From Bacteroidota bacterium (lineage in GTDB: Bacteria; Bacteroidota; Bacteroidia; Chitinophagales; Chitinophagaceae), in assembly GCA_018267965.1 (NCBI GenBank), contig JAFDXK010000005.1, positions 496,001 through 560,000 of the forward strand: 64,000 nt of DNA. The letters are read 5' to 3'. The translations under genes were made by a program, and so were the position numbers. The notes beneath the pieces were generated by a model. The model worked only from the letters and a program-made list of their open reading frames with translations, was not told where the DNA came from and ran no database searches. How positions within the stretch are numbered: the first letter of the stretch is position 1; each line of letters starts with the position of its first letter. This document shows positions 45,414 through 50,006 of the stretch, one piece after another.

Positions 45414-45464
45414 CGTCATTGCGAACAAAATATTTCATTATGAAATATGCAGTGTGGCAATCTC
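45414..45464 (+). repeat. Palindromic repeat copy 3 (left end of cassette 1)
   Basis: CGTCATTGCGAAC, inner hairpin ATATTTCA-TTA-TGAAATAT (45430-45448), then GTGTGGCAATCTC. The conserved tail ATGAGTA follows. Confidence 0.88.
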
Positions 45465-45490
45465 ACTAGATGAGTACAATATATTGCACG

Positions 45491-46327
45491 TTAAATAGAT
45501 GCTTCATAATCTAAACCATTAACGCCTAACTCATATAATTTAGGATAAACAATTTTTAAAATTTTACCGCTCACCTTTATGTAACCTCTAGGTTTACCTG
45601 AAAGCTTAGCAGAGAAACCGATACCTGCTCTTGAAATATTCTCGCCAGCATCTTCTAATACTTTAGTTACCAATTCTTGCTGAGAAAAGTCAAATAAAAT
45701 TTTAAACATTGCATTATCAACTATACTAGGTTGTCTGGAATTTGATGTTCCTATTTTATTTATTGCATAAGTTAATTCTTCCAGTTTGTCAAGTATATAC
45801 TTTTCGGTATCTGTACTGTTTTTTATTGCAATCTCTTTCATTATACTTTCCTCGATACCATCGTAGATAGGATTATTAGGCTTTTGTTCTTTCAAGCATG
45901 TTTCAATAGCAGCTTGCAGTTTAGGCTTTAAAACATCAACGCCAATCATATCATTAGTATAGAAAATCGTATTCTGTTGAGCAATGTCAAAAGGCAAAGA
46001 TGTTCCGAATTCAGCAAGAATAACAACAGGTTTACGTGTAGCATGCCTTACAGCTAACTCATACATTACATTAGGGTTTAATTCAGTTAAATTAGCTATG
46101 ACTATATCATCTTCAACAATCCTTTGTATTATCTGTTTGGTTATTGAACCTGTAATATCTATTTGATGTGCAGCATAACCTTTAATATCTAATTCTGCTA
46201 ATACAGGTAAAATAACAGCTTTAATCAAACCGTCAGTTTTTATCCTTGTATCAGAATTATCGTGCCCTATAGGTGTTATAATAAAACACTTTTTTTCTTT
46301 TTTGACTTCTGTTTTCTTGGTTGCCAT
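45491..46327 (-). CDS. Nucleoside 2-deoxyribosyltransferase/TIR-like nucleotide-binding protein
   Basis: 278 aa from the ATG at 46327 (MATKKTEVKKEKKCFIITPIG). Motifs FIITPIG (15-21), GY.AHQID.TGSI (50-62) and ANLTELNPNVMYELAVRHA (78-96), with Glu90 as the likely active-site Glu, are those of the deoxyribosyltransferase/TIR-like fold found in several bacterial defence effectors. The C-terminal half (~130-278) is helical with a small beta region and unassigned. An ATG at 46345 lies upstream, but the box TATATTTG begins inside its codons, so the downstream start is preferred. Flanked by inverted repeats on both sides. Defence function is only a possibility. Confidence 0.8.
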   Translation of the reverse strand: MATKKTEVKKEKKCFIITPIGHDNSDTRIKTDGLIKAVILPVLAELDIKGYAAHQIDITGSITKQIIQRIVEDDIVIANLTELNPNVMYELAVRHATRKPVVILAEFGTSLPFDIAQQNTIFYTNDMIGVDVLKPKLQAAIETCLKEQKPNNPIYDGIEESIMKEIAIKNSTDTEKYILDKLEELTYAINKIGTSNSRQPSIVDNAMFKILFDFSQQELVTKVLEDAGENISRAGIGFSAKLSGKPRGYIKVSGKILKIVYPKLYELGVNGLDYEASI

Positions 46328-46336
46328 AGACAACAA

Positions 46337-46344
46337 ATATACCA
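46337..46344 (-). promoter_or_regulatory. -7 box overlapping the alternative start
   Basis: On the minus strand TATATTTG lies about 9 bases before the ATG at 46327 and overlaps the codons of the longer start. Confidence 0.45.
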
Positions 46345-46375
46345 ATAATTACTGCTGTATAACCACTCATTCCCC

Positions 46376-46459
<84 letters not shown>

Positions 46460-46517: not shown

Positions 46518-47696
46518 CTATTCATCGTCACCTTTCAGTATTCTACCAACAGTAGTTTTACTGATACCTGCTTCTACGGCTATATCTCTATAACTCCAAT
46601 CAGGGTTCTCTTCTGCTAATCTTCTCACCATTTCTTCTACAGCCTCCCTGCTCCGCTCCTTCGCATCTTTCAGGTGTTCGTGTTCTTTGCCGTAGCCAGT
46701 GTGGGTAAACTGTAAAAAATTATGCGGCTTCTCTATGCGGCAGAGGCATACGTTGTTGCTGTCGTACACTACTTCGGTGTTGCGTGCTTTTATCTGTTTC
46801 AGGTAGCGCATACTTTTATCGCAGTTGCTTTCGCCTATGCAAAAACTACTGTCGCAAAAATTAATGAGTGCCTTGCTGCCCTGCAGGTCGTTGCGGTTCA
46901 TGGCTTTGGTGCCATCGCGTTTGGGTGTGTGTGCCAGTGCCAGTATGCTCAGGTTATATCTCAGCTTCAGGGCTTTCAGTTCCTTCATCAGCGGCATGGC
47001 ATCGGCGGCACGTTCGGTTTCGCTGCGCAGGTAGGTCAGGTTGTCTATCACCAGTATGCGTGCGCCCGTGTCGGTTACGGTCTTCTCCAGCGAGTAACTG
47101 AGGTATTCCTCAAACGTGGGGTATCGTGCGGGTATATCGGCATCGGGGTTTATCTCTGCGCGGTGCATATTGGGGCTAAAGGCGTAGTGCTGTGTATAGT
47201 TGCGGCTGTAGCGTGCTTCAAACTGTTTGTCAAACAATTCAAAATCAAAATACACCACTTTCTGTGCGCGGGCATCTAATTTAAAACCGGGTATGTGCAC
47301 CCCACGGCTGATGCTGTCGGCTATCTGCACAGCCAGGATGCTTTTGCCCGTGTTGGTGTCTGCAAACAATATGCAGAGTTCTCCTTCGTGCCAAAACTCG
47401 CTGAAGAGCATTTGAGGCACGGGGCGCATGGCGGCCTGTTGCAGCCAGTCGTTGCCGGGCATAACGGTAAATAGCCCTTTGGTGCTGTCGAACTGTTTGA
47501 AGGCAAGGTCCATCACGTCTATAGGTTCGGTGGGCTTGGATGGCAGCCCGTCGTTCATGTCTGCCCCATCGGGGATGTTAACGGTGACCATTGGCTTTGC
47601 TTGCTTGCCATTAGTGAGAGACGCATATATCTCCGGGGTTGCGGGTATTGCTTTAGACCAGTCTATCCATTCGTTGGATTTGTTTTGATGTTCCAT
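46518..47696 (-). CDS. RecA-like AAA ATPase (RepA type) with C-terminal HTH
   Basis: 392 aa. Walker A ADTNTGKS (112-119) follows GELCILF, Walker B is in ARILVIDNLTYL, and a later LSILALAHTPKRD block is the RepA/DnaB-like motif region. The C terminus has a resolvase/Fis-like helix-turn-helix (YRDIAVEAGISKTTVGRILKGD). Plasmid RepA helicases and integrated-element ATPases share this build. The N-terminal ~95 residues are unassigned. An inverted repeat upstream (47738-47773) may be its operator. Marks the island as element-derived. Confidence 0.85.
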   Translation of the reverse strand: MEHQNKSNEWIDWSKAIPATPEIYASLTNGKQAKPMVTVNIPDGADMNDGLPSKPTEPIDVMDLAFKQFDSTKGLFTVMPGNDWLQQAAMRPVPQMLFSEFWHEGELCILFADTNTGKSILAVQIADSISRGVHIPGFKLDARAQKVVYFDFELFDKQFEARYSRNYTQHYAFSPNMHRAEINPDADIPARYPTFEEYLSYSLEKTVTDTGARILVIDNLTYLRSETERAADAMPLMKELKALKLRYNLSILALAHTPKRDGTKAMNRNDLQGSKALINFCDSSFCIGESNCDKSMRYLKQIKARNTEVVYDSNNVCLCRIEKPHNFLQFTHTGYGKEHEHLKDAKERSREAVEEMVRRLAEENPDWSYRDIAVEAGISKTTVGRILKGDDE

Positions 47697-47845: not shown

Positions 47846-47895
47846 TCGTCATTGCGAGTGAGTTTCTGTTCCACAGAAACGAGTGTGGCAATCTC
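47846..47895 (+). repeat. Palindromic repeat copy 5 (left end of cassette 2)
   Basis: TCGTCATTGCGAG, inner hairpin GTTTCTGT-TCC-ACAGAAAC (47862-47880), then GTGTGGCAATCTC and the tail ATGAGTA. 25 bases before the GIY-YIG gene. Confidence 0.9.
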
Positions 47896-47920
47896 AAGAA
47901 ATGAGTATTATATTTAACGT

Positions 47921-48217
47921 ATGTATAAAGGTGGCGCAGTATATATCATGTCTTCTCCGAACAGAGGCACATTATATATTGGTGTTACATCTGATTTAAG
48001 CGGACGTGCGTGGGAGCATAAAAACAAAATCTACCCCGACAGCTTTACCGCGAAATATAATTGCGTAGTACTGGTTTACTTTAAATATTTTGAAGGTATA
48101 GAAGAAGCTATTGAAGAAGAGAAAAGACTAAAAAAGGCAAACAGAGCGTATAAAGAATCATTAATAGATAGTATGAATCCTAACTGGAATGACCTTTATG
48201 ACATTATTGAACTATGA
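47921..48217 (+). CDS. GIY-YIG single-domain nuclease
   Basis: 98 aa, just the nuclease domain. VYI (7-9) and LYIG (18-21) are the GIY and YIG strands. R29 and H33 in SGRAWEHK and E67 in AIEEEKR are the usual catalytic positions. NPNWNDL ends the domain. Same size as YhbQ-type proteins, with no DNA-binding extension. Repeat copy 5 lies 25 bases upstream, and inverted copy 6 lies 19 bases downstream. The stop codon is inside a 7-base tandem repeat (GAACTAT, 48209-48229). It may act on the repeats' hairpins (inference). Confidence 0.9.
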   Translation: MYKGGAVYIMSSPNRGTLYIGVTSDLSGRAWEHKNKIYPDSFTAKYNCVVLVYFKYFEGIEEAIEEEKRLKKANRAYKESLIDSMNPNWNDLYDIIEL

Positions 48218-48229
48218 ACTATGAACTGT
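48209..48229 (+). repeat. 7-base tandem repeat
   Basis: GAACTAT twice and GAACTGT once, containing the GIY-YIG stop codon. Confidence 0.8.
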
Positions 48230-48236
48230 ATTTCGT

Positions 48237-48289
48237 GAGATTACCACACTTCGTATTTATGAGATAAATACTACGTTCGTAATGACGAG
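48237..48289 (-). repeat. Palindromic repeat copy 6, inverted (right end of cassette 2)
   Basis: GAGATTACCACAC, inner hairpin GTATTTAT-GAG-ATAAATAC (48253-48271), then CGTAATGACGAG. Inner stem identical to copy 2. Confidence 0.9.
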
Positions 48290-48310
48290 AGAAAGAGAGA
48301 GAGAGAGAGA
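48287..48310. repeat. Second GA microsatellite
   Basis: GA run with one interruption, beginning in the terminal CGAG of repeat copy 6. Confidence 0.92.
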
Positions 48311-49957: not shown

Positions 49958-50006
49958 CGTCATTGCGAGGGAGTTTCTGTCTTACAGAAACGGACAAAGC
50001 AATCTC
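49958..50006 (+). repeat. Palindromic repeat copy 7
   Basis: CGTCATTGCGAGG, inner hairpin GTTTCTGT-CTT-ACAGAAAC (49973-49991, same stem as copy 5), then AAAGCAATCTC. It lies alone, and the following sequence leads into the promoter of the next gene. Confidence 0.88.

Follow-up and report, generated by a model that had tools for sequence, protein, structure and literature searches.

The window, by which we mean the whole 64,000-nt stretch of DNA analysed here, contains a single-domain GIY-YIG nuclease gene between a forward and an inverted copy of a CGTC-type REP. This locus is probably an autonomous copy of the arrangement CGTC-REP > GIY-YIG gene < CGTC-REP, in which the nuclease serves as the cognate enzyme of CGTC REPs, as RAYT does for GTAG REPs. 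A published survey distinguishes two classes of bacterial REPs: GTAG REPs, which are associated with RAYT transposases, and CGTC REPs, which occur in five phyla and above all in Alphaproteobacteria (PMC3733652). It defines CGTC REPs by a CGTC tag outside the stem and a stem starting with AT, includes Neisseria dRS3 and two Rickettsia repeat families (RPE-4/6) among them, and states that they "apparently lack a dedicated transposase", with few fortuitous transposase-gene associations; the describers left their origin open (PMC3733652). The GIY-YIG enzyme is the best candidate for this missing partner of CGTC REPs.

Results

The cassette in the window and its repeats

The features of the locus and its surroundings are as follows.

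45414..45464, + strand: additional REP to the left of a TIR-like ORF
46376..46426, - strand: additional REP to the right of this TIR-like ORF, then a (GA)n run
46518..47696, - strand: neighbour gene, AAA_25 (RepA/DnaB-like) ATPase
47847..47895, + strand: upstream CGTC-type REP, CGTCATTGCGAG...GTGTGGCAATCTC; CGTC tag (unpaired), ATTGC/GCAAT as outer stem, an inner hairpin that varies, and a 3' arm of subtype GTGTGG; pairing and covariation over 27 copies in the same genome
47921..48217, + strand: single-domain GIY-YIG nuclease gene, 98 aa; family-conserved Y8, Y19, G21, R29, H33, E67 and K71; AlphaFold2 pLDDT 95
48237..48287, - strand: downstream inverted REP, CGTCATTACGAA...GTGTGGTAATCTC; 3' arm of subtype GTGTGG as upstream, inner stem different
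49958..50006, + strand: further solo REP copy, GGACAAAG subtype

The gene runs from an ATG at 47921 to a stop ending at 48217. Read directly, the upstream REP ends 25 bases before the gene and the downstream REP begins 19 bases after it. This agrees with the preliminary description, which had given both spacings and had a lone GIY-YIG gene bracketed by a forward and an inverted repeat copy. Its further statement that the same repeat occurs twice holds for the outer ends and 3' arms, which the two copies have in common, but not for the inner hairpins, which differ (TTTCTGT/ACAGAAA versus TATTTAT/ATAAATA) with the pairing kept. A homologue of the neighbouring AAA_25 ATPase also adjoins a GIY cassette in the relative G010. 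The outer ends of two window REPs pass directly into (GA)n microsatellites (48284-48310 and 46416-46455).

In each repeat, a CGTC tag and a CTC tail accompany an inner hairpin and the outer stem ATTGC/GCAAT. Using the head pattern CGTCATTNCGA with up to one mismatch, we found 13 matches in the window versus 1.96 expected, and the 3.74-Mb genome holds 48 exact matches versus 14 for the reversed pattern. A head match is not always a whole REP; 28 whole units were excised by script, of which 27 show the double-hairpin form and make up the covariation set, the L294 unit with CGTCATTTCGAGCG being excluded as lacking this form. Across the 27 units, 98.6% of the cells are paired, 8 of the 13 pairs show changes on both sides, and the covariation score is 0.394, versus 0.142 when shuffled and at most 0.10 when slid. 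The inner stem therefore varies freely, with its pairing kept. The CGTC tag and the ATTGC...GCAAT columns are invariant or nearly so in the 27 copies. Among the cassettes of this genome, the 3' arms are specific to the copy (GTGTGG, ACGTGG and ACGAAG).

REPs of this genome also surround other genes. Inverted pairs enclose a TIR-like ORF (45491-46345 in the window, between the REPs at 45414 and 46426; a weak PADLOC hit), an FRG/PDC-S15 ORF and a 134-aa ORF of no assigned family, and a DUF559 ORF has a REP head on either side (45414-46426; L290, L291, L293). Of these four non-GIY ORFs, three look defence-like. We do not claim that REP pairs move defence-like genes as cargo, as non-GIY genes in inverted brackets are few, on a count by eye, compared with REP pairs in other orientations. 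L338, a relative of the TIR-like gene, has a single REP in an adjoining interval and is not bracketed. In the relative G055, paired CGTC REPs form a REPIN-like family of about 200 bp with many copies and variable inner hairpins, of which 16 were fetched (L270-L285).

The GIY-YIG protein

The window protein matches PF01541 (GIY-YIG) with an E value of 4.9e-13. In 177 family sequences, the catalytic positions are near-invariant: Y8 in 172, Y19, G21 and R29 in 176 each, and E67 in 175; we take these to be the catalytic Tyr, Tyr-Gly, Arg and Glu of the GIY-YIG motif. The stop-bearing copies L037, L051 and L062 were excluded from the protein alignments and the family tree. The AlphaFold2 model of the window protein (pLDDT 95) is closest in fold to UPF0213 (1zg2, E 7.8e-4), followed by the branched-DNA nuclease Slx1 (probability 0.99, but E 0.11). 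The closest solved relative, by sequence as well as by fold, is the UPF0213 protein BH0048 (PDB 1zg2). A chain of 98 aa has no room for a separate DNA-binding domain. For four proteins, NCBIfam gave no family above cut-off. A phage origin is unsupported, one family member having no match in 50,697 phage records at E <= 1e-8.

The genome of the window has four single-domain GIY-YIG genes. Three (L002, L003 and L004) are bracketed by REPs and one (L001) is not; two larger GIY-YIG proteins of the same genome are also unbracketed.

Association of the gene with REPs across genomes

Relatives of the three cassettes were fetched by protein, blind to their flanks (69 loci), together with loci from relatives of the window's genome, a set that contains some remote GIY-YIG proteins. 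In a test that used no motif, the 300 nt upstream of each gene were matched against the 300 nt downstream in reverse complement, at a threshold score of at least 14. Dropped before counting were the duplicates L076, L008, L010, L015 and L033, L075 (contig end), L001 (other subfamily), and L009, L063, L069 and L084, which have less than 150 nt on a side; the flanks of the three stop-bearing copies were kept. Of the resulting 92 GIY loci, 60 have inverted flank repeats; for the other ORFs of these loci, which serve as controls, the count is 6 of 429, and for the small ones among them 2 of 125. Counting inverted or direct repeats gives 73/92 versus 16/429, and neither kind reaches the threshold at 19 of the 92 loci. 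With groups assigned from record titles and the relatives of the window's genome taken as Bacteroidota, inverted repeats are found at 33/57 loci in this group, 21/26 in Alphaproteobacteria, 3/4 in other Proteobacteria, 2/3 in Nitrospirota and 1/2 in Chloroflexota. The 18 Rhizobiaceae loci are not independent, because most share one site; without them, the count is 43/74.

A fresh draw with a 28-row profile (E <= 1e-20) covered the classes of a Rhodocyclaceae genome (Gammaproteobacteria in GTDB) and of a Sphingopyxis genome (Alphaproteobacteria). The GIY-YIG family is present in 60 of 274 genomes of the former and in 54 of 190 of the latter. Among the best loci listed, with L150, L153 and L188 excluded for a short flank, inverted repeats occur at 36/55 (22/27 Gamma, 14/28 Alpha) versus 0/22 controls, inverted or direct repeats at 43/55, and neither at 12/55. 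A wider count including 13 further loci from several phyla, of which L137 repeats L086 and two lie in long ORFs, gives 45/68 inverted.

A finder of CGTC hairpins detected them on both sides of 87 of 159 genes. The same holds for 15 of 413 control ORFs, and when the flanks are shuffled the count falls to 0.9 of 159. In the 87 two-sided cases, the nearest tags point outward on both sides in 54, inward in 15 and in mixed directions in 18, so that a majority face outward and 33 do not have both tags outward. The preliminary description had proposed asking whether the repeat flanks GIY-YIG ORFs at a rate far above chance, and all three comparisons with control ORFs answer that it does.

Eight of 31 records of a plasmid collection were examined individually. 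Inverted CGTC REPs surround the gene in those of Sphingobium, Sinorhizobium, Rhizobium sp. CIAT894, Shinella and Novosphingobium. A Neisseria gonorrhoeae family member lies between CGTCATTCCCGC repeats of the dRS3 type (L225:1250-2010), and a Planktothrix plasmid carries the gene with direct repeats of the GTCATTCTGAG type. In Rhizobium tumorigenes, no bracket was found at the threshold. In summary, the pairing of gene and REP is seen in Bacteroidota, Proteobacteria, Nitrospirota, one Chloroflexota locus and one cyanobacterial plasmid.

Flanking repeats tend to match within a gene copy

In six genomes with 3 to 10 copies each (32 copies), a copy's upstream flank resembles its own downstream flank more closely than it does the flanks of the other copies in that genome. 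The summed score is 680 versus a permuted mean of 413 (sd 42), with a p value of 5e-5, the minimum for 20,000 permutations. The matching is weak in one genome (G438), and in another (G169) one type is common to three copies.

The presence of the gene is also linked to that of one REP type at the genome level. In the Gammaproteobacterial draw (274 genomes), one 24-base REP pattern is present in 38 of 60 gene-positive versus 31 of 214 gene-negative genomes (p 4e-13, phylogeny ignored), and the reversed pattern has no match in these genomes. Conversely, 31 of the 69 pattern-bearing genomes lack a GIY match at E <= 1e-20, and 22 of the 60 gene-bearing genomes lack the tested pattern. Among 59 relatives of the window's genome, a Bacteroidota REP pattern is enriched (at least 10 matches and double the control count) in 16 of the 23 that have a strong GIY match versus 2 of the 36 that lack one, phylogeny again ignored; outside the window's genus, the counts of 3/9 versus 2/35 are borderline (p 0.05). 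Other stem types are missed by these tests, because one pattern was counted in each.

A sister clade beside tRNA genes

The unbracketed gene L001 falls into a distinct clade (27/27 sequences; support 0.88). Members of this clade (L310-L336, comprising C11:59613-59855 of the window's genome and relatives) adjoin tRNA genes, with a partial tRNA copy on the other side. After removal of two loci with short flanks and two duplicates from the 27, 23 were counted: inverted repeats reach the threshold at 3 and direct repeats at 18, and the narrow REP-head pattern has no match in any of the 23. Most of the 17 direct repeats listed correspond to a portion of a tRNA gene, as a rule the 3' portion. ARAGORN, run on 20 of the 27 loci, finds a tRNA gene in 19, with many isotypes represented. 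Some direct scores reflect tandem GIY copies (L312, L314). Such tandem tRNA-linked copies occur in the relatives G021 (L314) and G035 (L312); those of G021 have tRNA genes between or next to them. The clade is possibly a tRNA-targeted sister element.

Cassette positions and cassette-free alleles

Varied locations and empty sites in close relatives were named in the preliminary description as things to look for, and each was found in part. A neighbour gene family is shared with another locus at 80 of 184 loci, largely at the Rhizobiaceae sufB-sufC site, and none is shared at 104 of 184, most loci having only about 1.5 kb of flank. Locations are varied outside Rhizobiaceae, but mostly fixed at sufB-sufC within this family. 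Since many Rhizobiaceae loci lie at one site, local vertical inheritance is common there. In the 30 sufB-sufC loci read (61 genomes searched), the gene is present in 4 and absent in 26, and 2 of the 26 gene-less loci hold a lone CGTC REP.

On Sphingobium plasmids, REP-GIY-REP lies between fnrL and a response regulator in four aligned cassette-bearing records, one of which has a one-base frame gap. TYG64 and TYG74, whose matched stretch is 89-92% identical to the query, carry at this site one symmetric REP, slightly changed in TYG74, composed of the outer halves of both bracketing REPs; in TYG72 and TYG65 the symmetric REP is absent. In Sinorhizobium Ak57, a REP-bracketed remnant with only the GIY C-terminus is followed by a full cassette. 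Sinorhizobium K101, with flanks about 95% identical, has one near-symmetric REP (tag CTC, not CGTC) at the place of the remnant; the full cassette is absent as well, with a degenerate asymmetric REP at its place. The S. meliloti remnant (L228:2160-2340), which holds only the last part of the GIY-YIG gene beside a full cassette, resembles an internal-deletion derivative. Stop-bearing, frame-shifted and truncated family copies exist.

Of the two cassette-free alleles, one lacks a full cassette and the other a remnant. Each holds a symmetric REP that joins both outer halves, a hint that the break points lie in the REP centres. They would fit insertion or loss alike, and 8-bp direct repeats ACCCCGGG at the Sphingobium allele would permit simple deletion as an alternative origin. 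Symmetric REPs are rare: there are 5 strand-wise hits among 299 distinct CGTC hairpins, two of them being the Sphingobium site read from both strands, and this rarity disfavours symmetric REPs as a common target. In a scan for the Bacteroidota type, 11 of 116 hairpins are followed by GAC, most of which are by eye the inner part of longer hairpins, and one is truly symmetric (L298, C5:749779). This REP of the window's genome carries a CGTC tag at both ends, like the cassette-free Sphingobium allele.

For the window's own copy, no empty site was readable, the nearest orthologues of its gly-zipper neighbour being only 53-58% identical; the ORFs listed around this neighbour in G010, G011 and G014 include no GIY gene. 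Near searches at Rhizobium, Rhizobium tumorigenes and Novosphingobium loci gave no clean empty site.

Discussion

The reading of the locus as a repeat-delimited cassette, put forward in the preliminary description, is supported by an association far above chance and by two cassette-free alleles. We suggest that the REP region becomes single-stranded or is extruded as a cruciform, and that the compact nuclease, with a fold nearest to UPF0213 and then to Slx1, would recognise the CGTC-tagged hairpin and cut near the REP centre. Repair or copying may then move, duplicate or remove REPs and cassette, and the solo and paired REPs would be non-autonomous products. That the protein cuts REPs, that REPs spread as a result and where the cut falls are the inferred parts of this scheme.

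Two alternatives accept that the nuclease acts on REPs. In one, other machinery makes the CGTC REPs, and a free-standing GIY-YIG homing endonuclease cuts them and is copied in, so that the brackets are a split target. The sister clade beside tRNA genes, with its copied tRNA parts, has a homing-like or target-duplication layout; 31 of 69 REP-carrying genomes have no GIY match, and one symmetric REP stands at both cassette-free alleles, as a split target predicts. However, the symmetric REP that this explanation needs is rare whereas cassettes are common, both flanks of a copy tend toward its own subtype, and the presence of the REP type tracks that of the gene, and we consider homing into existing REPs unlikely. 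The other alternative is a host-domesticated processor that resolves REP cruciforms, or regulates itself via its own REPs, with little or no mobility. We think this improbable: the varied positions elsewhere (104 of 184 without a shared neighbour family, on short flanks), the patchy presence and the stop-bearing, frame-shifted and truncated copies all speak against it, although the common sufB-sufC position in Rhizobiaceae and a fold also near the branch-cutting Slx1 would suit it.

It is also conceivable that REPs merely gather at the intergenic ends of any dispensable small gene, and the TIR-like, FRG and unassigned ORFs bracketed by REPs in the window's genome, with the DUF559 ORF flanked by REP heads, could be taken in this sense. 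Such passive association is already disfavoured and very improbable, as control ORFs in the same loci have inverted repeats at only 6/429 overall and 2/125 when small, the sister family has 0/23 matches to the narrow REP-head pattern and 3/23 inverted repeats, and the matching of flanks is specific to the gene copy.

We return to the nuclease as cognate enzyme of CGTC REPs. A broader reading, to which we give slightly less than an even chance, is a new class of mobile element whose only protein is a GIY-YIG nuclease of about 95 aa, which has CGTC REP ends, makes the CGTC REP and REPIN populations and breaks and joins at REP centres, the sister clade doing likewise at tRNA genes. If this is true, single-domain GIY-YIG nucleases are a family of structure-targeted elements. 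A cognate nuclease gives the question of CGTC REP origin one directly testable candidate, in culturable organisms. It would be a second arrangement of nuclease and REP, built on an enzyme of unrelated fold, and might account for the scatter and multiplication of small single-domain GIY-YIG genes. Among the open-licence PMC papers listed in our searches (titles and abstract starts), we found no report of a GIY-YIG/REP or a GIY-YIG/tRNA-repeat pairing.

Comparison with known systems

Among solved structures, UPF0213 (BH0048, 1zg2) is nearest to the window protein by sequence and fold. Free-standing GIY-YIG homing endonucleases of the I-TevI and Seg type have the GIY-YIG catalytic fold. The window protein is like them in this fold and in that selfish spread is plausible, but differs in its 98 aa without room for an extra DNA-binding domain, its inverted hairpin flanks and the absence of any intron seen. 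As for an uninterrupted target allele, a symmetric REP stands at two alleles without the full or remnant cassette, where both directions of change are possible.

The window repeat resembles the CGTC REPs of Di Nocera 2013 in its tag outside the stem and its stem starting with AT (CGTC-ATTGC...GCAAT). In the loci fetched, the hairpins fit a stem of 8-9 bp, a loop of 4-5 and a tail near CCA (CCA in 130 of 299), and both sets extend over several phyla with a short tail, mostly CCA in the scanned hairpins. The window copies, in contrast, are longer: their outer stem has 5 bp, a variable inner hairpin is added, and the tail is CTC. No dedicated enzyme is reported in that work.

The closest parallel in organisation is REP-RAYT (TnpA-REP), or REPtrons, with GTAG REPs. 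TnpA-REP is reported to cleave its single-stranded REP (PMC8266576). Both systems place a small nuclease gene between tagged hairpin repeats, have several copies per genome with copy-specific REP types, and are accompanied by paired, REPIN-like REPs elsewhere in the genome. In the GIY-YIG family, the gene is flanked by its own REP type in a majority of members, not in all. The enzyme is a stand-alone GIY-YIG protein (PF01541, with model and PDB matches in agreement) and not a Y1 HUH tyrosine transposase, and the tetranucleotide 5' of the hairpin is CGTC and not GTAG. The window system would work like REP-RAYT, yet it is not a member, because both its enzyme and its tag are different.
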